Positions 17,392 through 21,356 of a stretch of 22,726 bases of DNA are shown piece by piece. The notes beneath the pieces are model-generated. The model did not search any database and was not told the DNA's origin. It worked only from the letters and a program-made list of their open reading frames with translations. Position numbers and translations under genes: made by a program. Where the stretch lies: positions 1 through 22,726 of the IMG/VR virus record IMGVR_UViG_3300040815_001139; one strand, written 5' to 3'. The stretch's first letter is position 1. Each line of letters begins with the position of its first letter. This stretch comes from a virus.

Positions 17392-17399
17392 TATTTATC
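17392..17399 (-). promoter_or_regulatory. Late promoter box within the cyclase stop
   Basis: TGATAAATA-ATAAT-ATG on the minus strand. The box overlaps the TGA stop of the cyclase gene and lies five bases before the ATG at 17386. Confidence 0.75.
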
Positions 17400-19467
17400 A
17401 CTTGGTTGTTTTGCGTTCAACTCCGTCCCATTCGCCTTTAGGCATAGGTTGTTTGATTCTTACTGCATAAAGATCTGCAAGGGTATCGTTCCATTTATGA
17501 TCTTTAATTATTTCTAGTTGATTAGAACACTCTGCCCATGCTCTATTTTGATATGCATCAACCATTCTGTTTACTACTCTTGCATACTTATGATCTTGCA
17601 ATATAGTATAAATTGTTACTGGTGCTGTTTGTCCTTTAACTGCAATTTTATCCAGCATTACTAAATTTTCCGGTATTGGTATTTGTTTTAGTGTATGCTC
17701 TGTAAACATAAAGAACACACCATACTCTTTTGTCTGTGCTTCTAAACGTGCCGCTAAGTTTACACTATCACCTAATACGGTGTAATCAAAACGTTGATTA
17801 CTACCCATGTTACCTACTACAGCATCGCCTGTGTTAATACCTATACCAACACCTAACTCCATTAAGCCATCTGCTTTAAGTTCTTTATTGAGAGTTGCTA
17901 ATTCTGTTTCCATTTCCTGTGCTGTTTCGATTGCCAACTGAGCATGGTTATCAACATCAAGTGGGGCATTCCATATCGCCATTAAGGCATCACCTATATA
18001 CTTGTCTATTGTGCCTTCTTTACGCATAACTAAATCAGTCATTGGGGTCATATATCTGTTTATAAGTTTACCTAACCCTTGTGGGTCTGTTTTAAACTGT
18101 TCCGATATGGGAGTAAACCCACGAATGTCTGAGAACAAATATGTCATTGTTCTTGTGTCTCCACCTAAACGTAATAGGCTTGGATCTTTTTGTAACTTTT
18201 TAACCATGGCTGGTGCAAGGTAATGTTCGAATTGTTTCTTAATTTGTTCACGTAATTTAAACTGTTTATAAAAGTTATTAAATGCCGCCTGTGTAAAAAC
18301 TAAAAAGCCACTTAGAACAGGAAATGTTGCGTCTACTAGTACTAAACTACCTGTGTATTGTCTTACACTATAATATGCTATACCGCCTAAAATCGCTAAG
18401 GCAATAGGTGCCGTTAGTAGTAAAGGTAATCTATATACTGCTAAAGCAACAAGTACCATAGTCAGTAACCCTATGAGAAGCTCTGTGATGGCACTTAACT
18501 GACTTCGTGTTATGTTACTACCATCTATAAAGTTCTGTAGCATATGAGCTTGTATCTCTTGTGGATATAAGTTTCCTCTAGGTGTAGGTACAGGGTTTGC
18601 TATACCTTCTGCTGTAACACCCACTATCACCATTTTACCTGCTAAATCTGGTATGCTGTCTGCTCCTGTATATTCTATAGTTTCAAAACTATTATTAAAA
18701 CGTATATATGCTGTGCCGTCTGGTTGAGTAATAATAGGTTCGAATCCTTTTACAGCAACTTCCTGTATTCCTATTTCACTTGTTTTAACTATATAACTTT
18801 TATTACCTGTTTTAACTCTCAACATTTCCACAGCAAAAGAGGGGTATATTTTCTCACCCACAGTAATTGCTAGTGGGTATGTTCTTGTTTGATTGTCTGG
18901 CTGTGGTGCAGAAGCATTTACTCCTTTTCCATTTGCCATTGATTCTAATATAGGAACATTGGTAACCAAGTTGGGCCATTTTAACAAATAATCTTTTGCT
19001 GGTACAGGACCAATTGTGCCGGTGCCTATATGAGGTCCAGATGTTTTTATACCTTTAACACTAGGTGTTTGGCTTAGTACATTGTAGTTAATCGGATTTC
19101 TTCTTGCTCCAGGAACATTAACTTTATTTTGTTCTAAAAAACTAGCAAAAGTAGGGTCTCCTCCAAAACGATCTTTTTCTGGAAACATAATAGTCCAACC
19201 CACAACTCCACTATTTTTACTTGCAACATCTACAATTAGTTGAGCATAATACTGCCTGGGAAAAGGATATTGGCCGTAAGTTGCTAGAGTATTTTCGCCA
19301 AAGTTAAGTAGTACAACATCATCGCTTTGTACTAATTCATCTAATTGTTGGTAACTGTCAAAAACTTGACCACGTAAACTTTGTAATGGCGTAGGGTCAA
19401 TTACCCTTAGTGCGAGTAGTAAGACAATTGATACTGCTACGGCATACCCGCTATATAACCATTTCAT
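17398..19467 (-). CDS. Membrane CHASE2-class III adenylate cyclase
   Basis: It is predicted to make cAMP from ATP. Order of parts: N-terminal membrane segment (about 8-22); a large extracytoplasmic CHASE2-type sensor (about 28-318, with LRGQVFDSYQQL, FPRQYYAQLI and the family's late V..GVTAEG and P.G..YP.EIQAHMLQ segments); two to three membrane segments (about 326-395); a short linker helix; then the cyclase domain (about 436-622). The catalytic set is complete: metal-binding Asp447 (FSDIRGF) and Asp493 (IGDALMAIW), adenine-selecting Lys489 and Thr563 or Asp561 (RFDYTVLGD), Asn570 and Arg574 (VNLAARLE). Its 689 residues are normal for bacterial CHASE2 cyclases. A late box ends five bases before the ATG, so the gene is wired into the phage late programme. 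Phage-encoded proteins of this type are not familiar to me. Confidence 0.92.
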   Translation of the reverse strand: MKWLYSGYAVAVSIVLLLALRVIDPTPLQSLRGQVFDSYQQLDELVQSDDVVLLNFGENTLATYGQYPFPRQYYAQLIVDVASKNSGVVGWTIMFPEKDRFGGDPTFASFLEQNKVNVPGARRNPINYNVLSQTPSVKGIKTSGPHIGTGTIGPVPAKDYLLKWPNLVTNVPILESMANGKGVNASAPQPDNQTRTYPLAITVGEKIYPSFAVEMLRVKTGNKSYIVKTSEIGIQEVAVKGFEPIITQPDGTAYIRFNNSFETIEYTGADSIPDLAGKMVIVGVTAEGIANPVPTPRGNLYPQEIQAHMLQNFIDGSNITRSQLSAITELLIGLLTMVLVALAVYRLPLLLTAPIALAILGGIAYYSVRQYTGSLVLVDATFPVLSGFLVFTQAAFNNFYKQFKLREQIKKQFEHYLAPAMVKKLQKDPSLLRLGGDTRTMTYLFSDIRGFTPISEQFKTDPQGLGKLINRYMTPMTDLVMRKEGTIDKYIGDALMAIWNAPLDVDNHAQLAIETAQEMETELATLNKELKADGLMELGVGIGINTGDAVVGNMGSNQRFDYTVLGDSVNLAARLEAQTKEYGVFFMFTEHTLKQIPIPENLVMLDKIAVKGQTAPVTIYTILQDHKYARVVNRMVDAYQNRAWAECSNQLEIIKDHKWNDTLADLYAVRIKQPMPKGEWDGVERKTTK

Positions 19468-19472
19468 ACTAA

Positions 19473-19480
19473 TATTTATC
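19473..19480 (-). promoter_or_regulatory. Late promoter box fused to cyclase start
   Basis: GATAAATA-TTAGT-ATG on the minus strand. The TAA inside the box is the stop codon of the exported 170-aa protein gene. Gap to the ATG is five bases, with no Shine-Dalgarno sequence. Confidence 0.78.
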
Positions 19481-19988
19481 GGATTTTATTGCAATCCTGC
19501 TTGGCTTTATTAAGTAATCTGAAATTATTTCCAACAACTGCCGCATAAAACATATTAGTACCGTCTAGTTCCTCAGGTGTTACTTCTGTCCAATAATCAT
19601 TATACAGTAAGCCTGGTAGCAACAAAAAACTTTTTGTTAGTACTAGTCTAGCATCACTAGGATTTTCTGAAAAAAGTGGATTCACTTCTTTTACACAATC
19701 ATACTTTAATGCTCGTGATGTTGAGTAAACATCTAATAATTGAAATGTCCAAAATGCTAACCATTGTCCATTAGTGGCACGTGGTGCCATATCAAATATT
19801 GGAATGTTACTAGTTTCTATCTTCTTACAAATTTCAGGATTATTATCGCAAAAATATGGATCTAGTGGGGGATTATAAGTAAGGTCTAATACTCTACCTT
19901 CCGGTAAGTATGCTGGACTAATAACAATTTCCTCTGCTGTTAAAAACAGAGGAAATGTTAATGTTATGATTAAAAGTAATTTATTCAC
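19476..19988 (-). CDS. Exported 170-aa protein, DUF5658-like
   Basis: A signal peptide is clear (MNKLLLIITLTFPLFLTA, likely cleaved before EE at 19-20), so the protein goes to the periplasm or inner membrane. The central part FQLLDVYSTSRALK...KEVNPLFSENPS (82-111) followed by LTKSFLLLPGLLYN resembles the short DUF5658-type membrane proteins with a Q..D..ST...EANPL pattern; their function is unknown. Four cysteines (Cys47, Cys54, Cys98, Cys166) could form disulfides. The start is GTG at 19988, overlapping the end of the frameshift extension of the lipoprotein by eight bases. The stop lies inside the cyclase promoter box. The context suggests an envelope role next to the cyclase. Confidence 0.72.
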   Translation of the reverse strand: MNKLLLIITLTFPLFLTAEEIVISPAYLPEGRVLDLTYNPPLDPYFCDNNPEICKKIETSNIPIFDMAPRATNGQWLAFWTFQLLDVYSTSRALKYDCVKEVNPLFSENPSDARLVLTKSFLLLPGLLYNDYWTEVTPEELDGTNMFYAAVVGNNFRLLNKAKQDCNKIR

Positions 19989-20195
19989 AATCTTCAGGTA
20001 TCTTGGAGCAATATTCTTTAATTGCGTCTTCTAAAAGTTTATCTTTCAATAACTCTTTTAGAACTTTATTTTGCAATAAAAGTTCTTTAATATCCTCTTC
20101 AGTTACCTGCTCACTCTCTTTCGAGGGTGAGTCTATACCTTTTTGTTTTTCGTTCTGTTTTAAAAACTTAAAAGGTTTAAAGAATGAGCTAGTTA
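19981..20195 (-). CDS. Start-less 71-codon frame, probable -1 frameshift extension of the lipoprotein
   Basis: From the slippery run at 20196-20202 an open frame without any ATG, GTG or TTG near its beginning continues to TAA at 19981. It would encode VTSSFFKPFKFLKQNEKQKG, a linker, then a strongly helical TEEDIKELLLQNKVLKELLK and a Cys-containing end (CSKIPEDCE). The composition looks coding, and the next gene overlaps its stop by eight bases in the style of this phage. It is in the -1 frame relative to the lipoprotein. A fusion of 178 residues would result. A real -1 frameshift, a sequencing indel in the A6 run, or a decayed gene are the alternatives. A hairpin with a GAAA loop lies inside it at 20110-20131. 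Confidence 0.6.
20110..20131 (-). other. RNA hairpin with GNRA tetraloop inside the extension frame
   Basis: On the minus strand CTCACCCTC pairs with GAGAGTGAG (nine positions, one C-A mismatch) around a GAAA loop. It is unusually GC-rich for this genome. It starts about 65 bases past the slippery run, too far for a classical frameshift stimulator, and has no T tract, so it is not a terminator. Confidence 0.4.
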
Positions 20196-20516
20196 CTTTT
20201 TTGGCTCTTCTTTAGGTTCTTCTTCTTGTAAAGCATCAGTTTGGTCGTTTACTTCGTCAGCAACAACTTTCACTAATCCAGCACCTGTGTCAGCCGCAGT
20301 TTGGACCAATCCAACACCTACTTCTGCACCAGTTTGGACAATGCTACCAACATCATTTGCAACTGAACCAACTACTGAACTAGCAGTACCGGTTACAGTA
20401 TCAATTGTATCTGTAGCAAGTTGTTTTCCACCATCGATCACGGTACCAACTGTAGCACAACCTTGAGCGAAAACAACAAAGAATATACCTAAGAACGCAT
20501 TTTTAAAATTGTTCAT
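20193..20516 (-). CDS. Lipoprotein with amphipathic repeat helix, 107 aa
   Basis: A lipoprotein signal is present: basic N-terminus, hydrophobic FLGIFFVVFAQ and lipidated Cys20 followed by ATVG. The -3 to -1 residues are Ala-Gln-Gly, close to a lipobox. Residues 40-90 are a low-complexity Ala/Val/Gly/Thr helix with VG..V and VQT.A repeats, like a long amphipathic helix lying on a membrane. The end is Glu/Lys/Pro-rich (EEEPKEEPKK). It is made from a late box 53 bases upstream with AGGAGA before the ATG, the layout used here for virion proteins, so high expression is likely. The last sense codons form the slippery sequence A AAA AAG directly before TAA. Role unknown: an outer-membrane exclusion or spanin-like part is possible. 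Confidence 0.78.
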   Translation of the reverse strand: MNNFKNAFLGIFFVVFAQGCATVGTVIDGGKQLATDTIDTVTGTASSVVGSVANDVGSIVQTGAEVGVGLVQTAADTGAGLVKVVADEVNDQTDALQEEEPKEEPKK

Positions 20517-20583: not shown

Positions 20584-20898
20584 TTAAAATCCTAACCTAT
20601 CGTTTGAAGTATTTCCAAATATACTATGCTCTTCGTGTAATATCAATTCCCACGTTAGCACATCTTTTGTAATTTGGTTATCTGCTTCACGAATTGCTTT
20701 AATGAGTACCTCTCTGTGACCAACATCTATTTCGTACGTTAATTCACACCACAAAAATAACACATAAAACATTACTGGAGGAACAACAATAAACATTAGA
20801 ACGTGTGGGAATAACCATCCTAATGCTACTAAGTGAGCGCCTAAGACAGCCATAGCATAGTTTCTCAAACTGTTTGTGTACTTAGTAACGTGGGTCAT
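20584..20898 (-). CDS. Small membrane protein, paralogue of its upstream neighbour
   Basis: Starting at the ATG at 20898 it has 104 residues and begins MTHVTKYTNSLRNYA. Two membrane segments follow (about AMAVLGAHLVALGWLFPHVL and MFIVVPPVMFYVLFLW), then a hydrophilic C-terminal tail of about 50 residues. It aligns with the 102-aa neighbour: NSLRNYAMAVLGAHL...WLFP against SSLKWYAGAIAYGHL...VLFP. That alignment favours 20898 over an ATG at 20925, which would add nine residues and a 44-base overlap. Function unknown; small paired membrane proteins in phages are often holins, antiholins or superinfection-exclusion proteins, but nothing here shows which. Confidence 0.62.
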   Translation of the reverse strand: MTHVTKYTNSLRNYAMAVLGAHLVALGWLFPHVLMFIVVPPVMFYVLFLWCELTYEIDVGHREVLIKAIREADNQITKDVLTWELILHEEHSIFGNTSNDRLGF

Positions 20899-21190
20899 AA
20901 TCTGCAAAAATGTAGTCTGGTTCATAATCGTTTACTAATACAAAAGGTCTCATGTGTGGATCATAACCACCGACATCAAATAATAGTATAGGTGTATACG
21001 GCCAATCTATGCCTTCACGTTGTGCATAATTATATACCATATAATATGCTATGAATAACCACAACGAAGGCACAACTAATAAAAATAAAACAAAAAAGTA
21101 CATGGGAAATAATACTATTAACAATAATAAATGTCCGTATGCTATTGCACCAGCATACCATTTTAAACTGCTAGTTACTTTGCTCAGCAT
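20882..21190 (-). CDS. Small membrane protein, 102 aa
   Basis: It begins MLSKVTSSLKWYAGAIAYGH and has a long hydrophobic region (about 14-55, two membrane segments, FPMYFFVLFLLVVPSLWLF), then a soluble Tyr/Asp-rich tail ending DYDPRY. It is the middle gene of three overlapping small membrane-protein genes driven by the early promoter at 21368-21396. It overlaps the 61-aa gene by 20 bases and the downstream paralogue by 17. No ribosome site is visible, so translational coupling is likely. Function unknown. Confidence 0.65.
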   Translation of the reverse strand: MLSKVTSSLKWYAGAIAYGHLLLLIVLFPMYFFVLFLLVVPSLWLFIAYYMVYNYAQREGIDWPYTPILLFDVGGYDPHMRPFVLVNDYEPDYIFADYDPRY

Positions 21191-21356
21191 TTTCTAGTTC
21201 TTGTTTGAGTATGAATCTAATATACTCATCTGCGTTAGTTAAATTATAATCTGTTACTATCGCAAATAATAAAGTAAGAAATACAAACGTCATTATCACT
21301 GACAAATATAAGTTTATACCGGCTGTTATCTTCAGCCATTTGATCATATGTTTCAT
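21171..21356 (-). CDS. Small membrane protein, 61 aa
   Basis: It is a single-pass protein: a short basic N-terminus (MKHMIKWLK), one hydrophobic segment (about 12-36, INLYLSVIMTFVFLTLLFAIV), then an acidic tail. The first gene of the early membrane-protein operon, it starts only 11 bases past a consensus -10, so its leader would be about five bases and lacks a ribosome site. The ATG at 21347 (MIKWLK) is an alternative. Function unknown. Confidence 0.6.
   Translation of the reverse strand: MKHMIKWLKITAGINLYLSVIMTFVFLTLLFAIVTDYNLTNADEYIRFILKQELENAEQSN

Follow-up and report, generated by a model that had tools for sequence, protein, structure and literature searches.

The gene studied here raises the question of whether a phage can make a membrane-anchored lipoprotein in two lengths by letting some ribosomes slip on the last codons of its reading frame. 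The window, that is, the whole stretch of 22,726 nucleotides that we analyzed (positions 1 to 22,726 of IMG/VR record IMGVR_UViG_3300040815_001139), encodes on its minus strand a 107-residue lipoprotein (20193..20516) with a signal peptide, the lipobox FAQGC, whose Cys20 is invariant, and an acidic C-terminal tail, EEEPKEEPKK. The original prediction placed a slippery A AAA AAG directly before the zero-frame stop, and the final codons of the ORF are indeed CCA AAA AAG TAA, with the heptamer at 20196..20202 (minus strand), read as AAA AAG in the zero frame, and the TAA abutting it at 20193..20195 (minus strand). The -1 frame was also said to stay open for 71 more codons and to end in an overlap with the next gene; from the heptamer it runs through two lysines and a 71-residue extension (19981..20202, minus strand) to a stop at 19983-19981, overlapping the GTG start (19988) of the downstream gene, so both statements hold. 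Its translation, KKVTSSFFKPFKFLKQ...EYCSKIPEDCE, comprises a basic SFFKPF linker, a charged helix and a CX6C end, and the peptide predicted across the junction of lipoprotein and extension would read ...EEPKKVTSSFFKPF. The two cysteines of the terminal CSKIPEDC (19987..20010, minus strand) are conserved, with Y64, C65, P69 and C72 invariant in relatives. AlphaFold2 models the extension alone as a single helix over residues 35-67 with a mean pLDDT of 71, and gives only a poor model of the lipoprotein (pLDDT 44).

We gathered relatives from IMG/VR scans with a close set, a wider family and then distant profiles (the best 80 of 148 and the best 80 of 155 matches), and tallied heptamer and extension in the 121 distinct homologues, among the matches listed, that have at least 100 nt downstream. 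An in-frame canonical heptamer was observed in all 70 of these with a -1 extension (64 with A AAA AAG, 5 with G GGA AAG and 1 with both A AAA AAG and A AAG GGA) and in none of the 47 without an extension; the other 4 lack a heptamer and carry the extension in the +1/-2 frame. Fisher's test of the association gives a p of about 8e-34, which is only indicative given that the sequences are related. In every close relative the lipoprotein ends in A AAA AAG TAA with a homologous extension in the -1 frame, and more distant relatives end in A AAA AAG TAG, A AAA AAG GAC TAA, A AAA AAG GGA TAA, A AAA AAG AAG TAA or G GGA AAG TAA/TAG. The heptamer is thus invariant across the -1 lineages, except where G GGA AAG takes its place, and it is retained in the GLS lineages, where the zero-frame stop comes one codon later. 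A comparison of homologues had been proposed as a check on the frameshift, and the joint conservation of the heptamer and both frames is an observation far beyond chance. Downstream of the homologues that lack an extension there is usually either a terminator-like hairpin or a conventional gene that has its own start, and therefore the short form can exist alone. We also observed, in L224/L218, a homologue without the heptamer but with a long -1 overlapping ORF, whose start seems to be a GTG that overlaps the stop (AAGTGA) and which looks like an ordinary coupled gene. One pattern match, L303, proved unrelated.

It had been stated beforehand that the prediction would fall if the A run were a sequencing indel, or if relatives carried the extension in frame or as a separate gene with its own start. 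Single-contig data and a homopolymer site do leave room for a sequencing or assembly error, or for a gene in decay, but dozens of contigs assembled from different metagenomes share the site, with lipoprotein identity to the window falling to about 35-45%, and dN/dS is about 0.2-0.3 for both the lipoprotein and the extension. Most members have a run of six or seven As, and with seven the heptamer remains in frame (GAA AAA AAG); the relatives show no indel artifact. Because the identical site recurs in independent metagenomes, a sequencing indel is ruled out, and we attach practically no weight to error or decay as an explanation. The extension was found in frame with the lipoprotein in no relative.

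Alternatively, the extension could be translated on its own as a distinct protein, through reinitiation or a nonstandard start after the lipoprotein stop, and its overlap with that stop is a layout common among coupled genes. None of the 71 distinct -1 members, however, has a start codon (ATG, GTG or TTG) in the stretch from the preceding stop to the slip site. This holds for the window too, and the original prediction that its -1 frame lacks a start codon stands for the region upstream of the slip; it does not hold for the extension itself, where an in-frame TTG occurs at codon 41, too late to account for the conserved first part of the extension. Across the -1 members, the first in-frame start within the extension ranges from codon 5 to codon 47 and is not conserved between lineages, and independent initiation would leave the conservation of the heptamer unexplained. 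A separate downstream gene was rejected on the absence of starts before the slip in the -1 members, and we consider it very improbable.

The -1 frame had been described as reading like a real protein, and the substitution patterns confirm this impression. Nei-Gojobori ratios calculated per frame gave medians of 0.29, 0.21 and 0.22 for the extension in the -1 frame of three lineages, compared to 0.7-2.3 in the other two frames and to 0.27-0.34 (pooled) for the lipoprotein. Purifying selection is confined to the -1 frame, where the extension evolves as a protein. For the first 30 extension codons in the window's lineage, where no member used has a start codon, pN/pS is 0.62 with pS lowered, a less clear signal than the extension gives over its full length; the RNA stem described below may be what lowers pS in this part. 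Lysine codons elsewhere in these ORFs are mostly AAA (251 AAA and 29 AAG, or about 10% AAG among 280), and the lysine codon at the Z position of the slip is AAG in 71 of 71. Since the Z-position G is also the first base of a -1 codon, part of this AAG bias may be due to selection on the -1-frame protein, which itself presupposes the slip.

Signals that stimulate -1 frameshifting generally begin 5-8 nt downstream of the slip site (PMC4066793), and in the window we found a stem, absent from the original prediction, whose 5' arm GCUCAUUCUUU (20179..20189, minus strand) begins 6 nt past the heptamer and pairs over 11 bp with the 3' arm AGAGAGUGAGC (20109..20119, minus strand). RNAalifold predicted this 11-bp stem from 20 sequences without prompting. 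In the first alignment 99.1% of cells are paired, compared to 50-68% for slid partners, with two pairs changed on both sides; in the GLS lineage the values are 94.9% and 36-53%, with three pairs changed on both sides. Most of the other representatives that we folded have simple hairpins at 5-7 nt past the heptamer, and one, L015, has a different minimum-energy fold. Dinucleotide-shuffle z-scores calculated along the gene dip at the end of the heptamer in four lineages (means of -3.2, -3.7, -4.6 and -4.6), and the signal is modest in the KVE lineage (mean z of about -1.5). A Shine-Dalgarno-like stimulator upstream of the heptamer, searched for by eye, is not consistently present. A second, sharp and terminator-like dip in folding energy lies just past the extension stop in loci of the L145/L158 and L162/L199 types, which suggests that the extension closes the transcription unit there.

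The stem also bears on transcriptional slippage, in which RNA polymerase would stutter on the A run and yield some mRNAs with the extension in frame. The A6 or A7 runs of most members would allow it, yet the G GGA AAG members hold an identical -1 relation without any run longer than three, and stuttering accounts neither for a stem placed at ribosomal spacing nor for the heptamer's fixed phase relative to the zero frame. On these grounds we rejected it as the common mechanism, to which we concede only a very slight chance.

We conclude that -1 programmed ribosomal frameshifting, which would give the lipoprotein in two lengths, is very likely. The locus satisfies the criteria that can be read from sequence: an X XXY YYZ heptamer in the correct phase, conservation of the heptamer and of a -1 frame under protein-level selection, and a stem or pseudoknot 5-8 nt downstream. 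The conserved heptamer, both frames and the stem support the frameshift that had been predicted, without experimental proof of a slip; the evidence is comparative, the slip and both products are inferred, and there are no reporter, ribosome profiling or peptide data. Most ribosomes would decode AAA AAG and stop at TAA, releasing the short lipoprotein. Some, held by the stem 6 nt downstream, would let both Lys-tRNAs shift back by one base onto AAA AAA, and would translate another 71 codons to give a long form with the same lipid anchor plus the basic linker, the charged helix and the two-cysteine end. The slip would thus fix the ratio of short to long form. A_AAA_AAG, the dnaX site, is highly prone to shifting in E. 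coli (PMC5009743). The signals of dnaX (gamma/tau) and of the IS911 type share with ours this heptamer, a stem starting 5-8 nt downstream and two products from one start. The lipoprotein site differs from them in that it has no consistent upstream Shine-Dalgarno-like stimulator, slipping would yield the longer product, the zero frame terminates immediately and the gene is that of a phage lipoprotein.

The four-member branch L070, L072, L075 and L082 has changed slip-site type and reading frame together. Its site is GA(A/C) GAA AAG AAG TA(A/G), in which the canonical heptamer is lost. The sequence before the conserved GCTCATTC is one base shorter, and the extension is in the +1 (= -2) frame. 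The extension retains a pN/pS of 0.23, and the stem is kept with a spacer one base shorter. Here, we infer, a Lys-tRNA could exchange its pairing with AAG for one with AAA two bases upstream. A review records -1, -2 and +1 variants among phage tail genes, the -2 type being that of phage Mu (PMC5009743). This branch also offers some support for a separately made extension, as a start codon precedes the extension in its own frame in three of the four members (in two of them it is an ATG that lacks an evident Shine-Dalgarno sequence) and in the fourth there is none; independent initiation in this branch is not fully excluded. We lean slightly toward the reading that recoding was kept obligatory while the event itself changed, being -1 on two heptamers in most lineages and -2 (or +1) at GAA AAG AAG UAR in these four. 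If true, the family would provide a natural series showing a frameshift signal that switches direction with its product retained.

The genes of the window described next lie on the minus strand. The downstream gene that overlaps the end of the extension encodes a 170-residue membrane protein with a signal peptide and a weak DUF5658 match (19476..19988), and the same cluster contains a CHASE2-adenylate/guanylate cyclase (17398..19467; PF05226 E=2e-32, PF00211 E=3e-18). Upstream are small membrane proteins of 113 (20584..20925) and 102 residues (20882..21190) and a 61-residue single-TM protein beginning MKHMIKWLKI (21171..21356). Homologues of the first and the last of these were observed upstream of 32 and 34, respectively, of 48 frameshift loci, compared to none of 21 loci without an extension, and form a module linked to the frameshift; the single-TM homologues are mostly 53-69 residues long. 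In relatives, CsgF, CsgG, curlin repeats and FecR lie upstream of the lipoprotein (L003:40-3661; L024:22-2353), and a DUF5658-like protein and the CHASE2 cyclase lie downstream, with close cyclase homologues following the lipoprotein in many of them. In another lineage the lipoprotein sits between DNA polymerase B and SNase/RecA-like genes. In one relative (L147:3900-5957), two ORFs of 89 and 593 residues take the place of an intact cyclase homologue, a split that could be an error, decay or another recoding event. The tail sheath of the window is closest (40%) to those of PA5oct-like jumbo phages and one relative's contig reaches 250,519 bases; a large uncultured marine myophage is therefore the probable source of the window. 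A curli-like cluster is observed in an apparently PA5oct-related myophage lineage, beyond the pelagimyophages.

The closest known counterpart of this neighborhood is the curli (CsgF/CsgG) cluster of pelagimyophages such as HTVC008M and of methylophage Melnitz, which also has CsgG, curlin repeats and a CHASE2 cyclase (with FecR in Melnitz); the cyclases of HTVC008M and Melnitz, at 34-36% identity, lie next to the curli genes. A profile search found no homologue of the lipoprotein in either phage, and the paper on this cluster mentions neither a lipoprotein, nor the cyclase, nor a frameshift (PMC7029224). Searches of annotated phages by tblastn with seven queries found no relatives, although the low-complexity filter may hide Ala/Val-rich proteins, and none were found in the bacterial genomes searched. 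In PHROGs and Pfam, neither the lipoprotein nor the extension could be assigned to a family, the matches being at chance level.

As for function, we propose that both forms would reside in the outer membrane facing the periplasm, an inferred location, and that the helix and cysteine pair of the long form would extend to a partner within an envelope complex, possibly the small inner-membrane protein whose gene lies upstream, the complex being built by the phage during infection. In its details this envelope-spanning complex is speculative and we hold it with low confidence. A rival reading makes the long form a lysis protein of spanin type, an outer-membrane lipoprotein reaching the inner membrane at a dose set by frameshifting. 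Like phage spanins (Rz1-type o-spanins and u-spanins), ours would be a periplasm-facing phage lipoprotein; the lipobox with its invariant cysteine meets the lipoprotein-signal criterion for a spanin, a C-terminal cysteine is found in many spanins (PMC6139136) and conserved in several of their families, and the gene close upstream in 34 of the 48 loci encodes a small, probably type II, inner-membrane protein. In the neighborhoods scanned, however, we saw no endolysin or holin nearby, the neighbors being curli, FecR and cyclase or replication genes, and neither adjoining lysis genes nor a recognized i-spanin were seen there, the linked 61-residue single-TM protein being a candidate only. The inner-membrane candidate, with homologues of only about 53-76 residues, has no room for a periplasmic domain of coiled-coil size, sister lineages have the short form only, and the two lengths inferred from frameshifting set this lipoprotein apart from spanins. 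Without lysis-complementation data, a spanin role seems to us improbable.

Conserved phage frameshifting is known mainly in tail chaperones and in some coat and tail proteins. The G/GT chaperones of lambda and its relatives resemble our case in being encoded by a phage gene with a slip near the 3' end that adds a C-terminal domain; the lipoprotein is, in contrast, lipid-anchored, not a tail gene and not beside a tape measure gene. The locus does not pass as a tail assembly chaperone, as its neighbors are membrane, curli and cyclase genes and the only hint of a tape measure is a weak PHROG match (E=0.017). The original prediction regarded a frameshifted lipoprotein as unfamiliar, and we likewise found no case combining the two in the open-access literature, an absence that is not proof of novelty; lipoproteins are not mentioned in the accessible part of the 2016 recoding review, nor in the paper on the PRFect tool, which deals mainly with tail chaperones. 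The mechanism is classical, and for a phage lipoprotein gene we found no earlier report in open papers.

To judge from its genomes, this phage family appears to make a membrane-anchored lipoprotein in two lengths, with the slippery site, the hairpin and the hidden tail kept together across deep evolutionary distances. In a family present in roughly a hundred or more contigs of uncultured marine viruses, and missed by ordinary gene calling, frameshifting would here serve an envelope protein that carries a lipid anchor. The joint gain and loss of heptamer, stem and tail, together with the frame-changed branch, makes the evolution of a recoding signal directly testable, and the finding gives a concrete way into the curli/cyclase clusters of marine myophages, which are so far unexplained.
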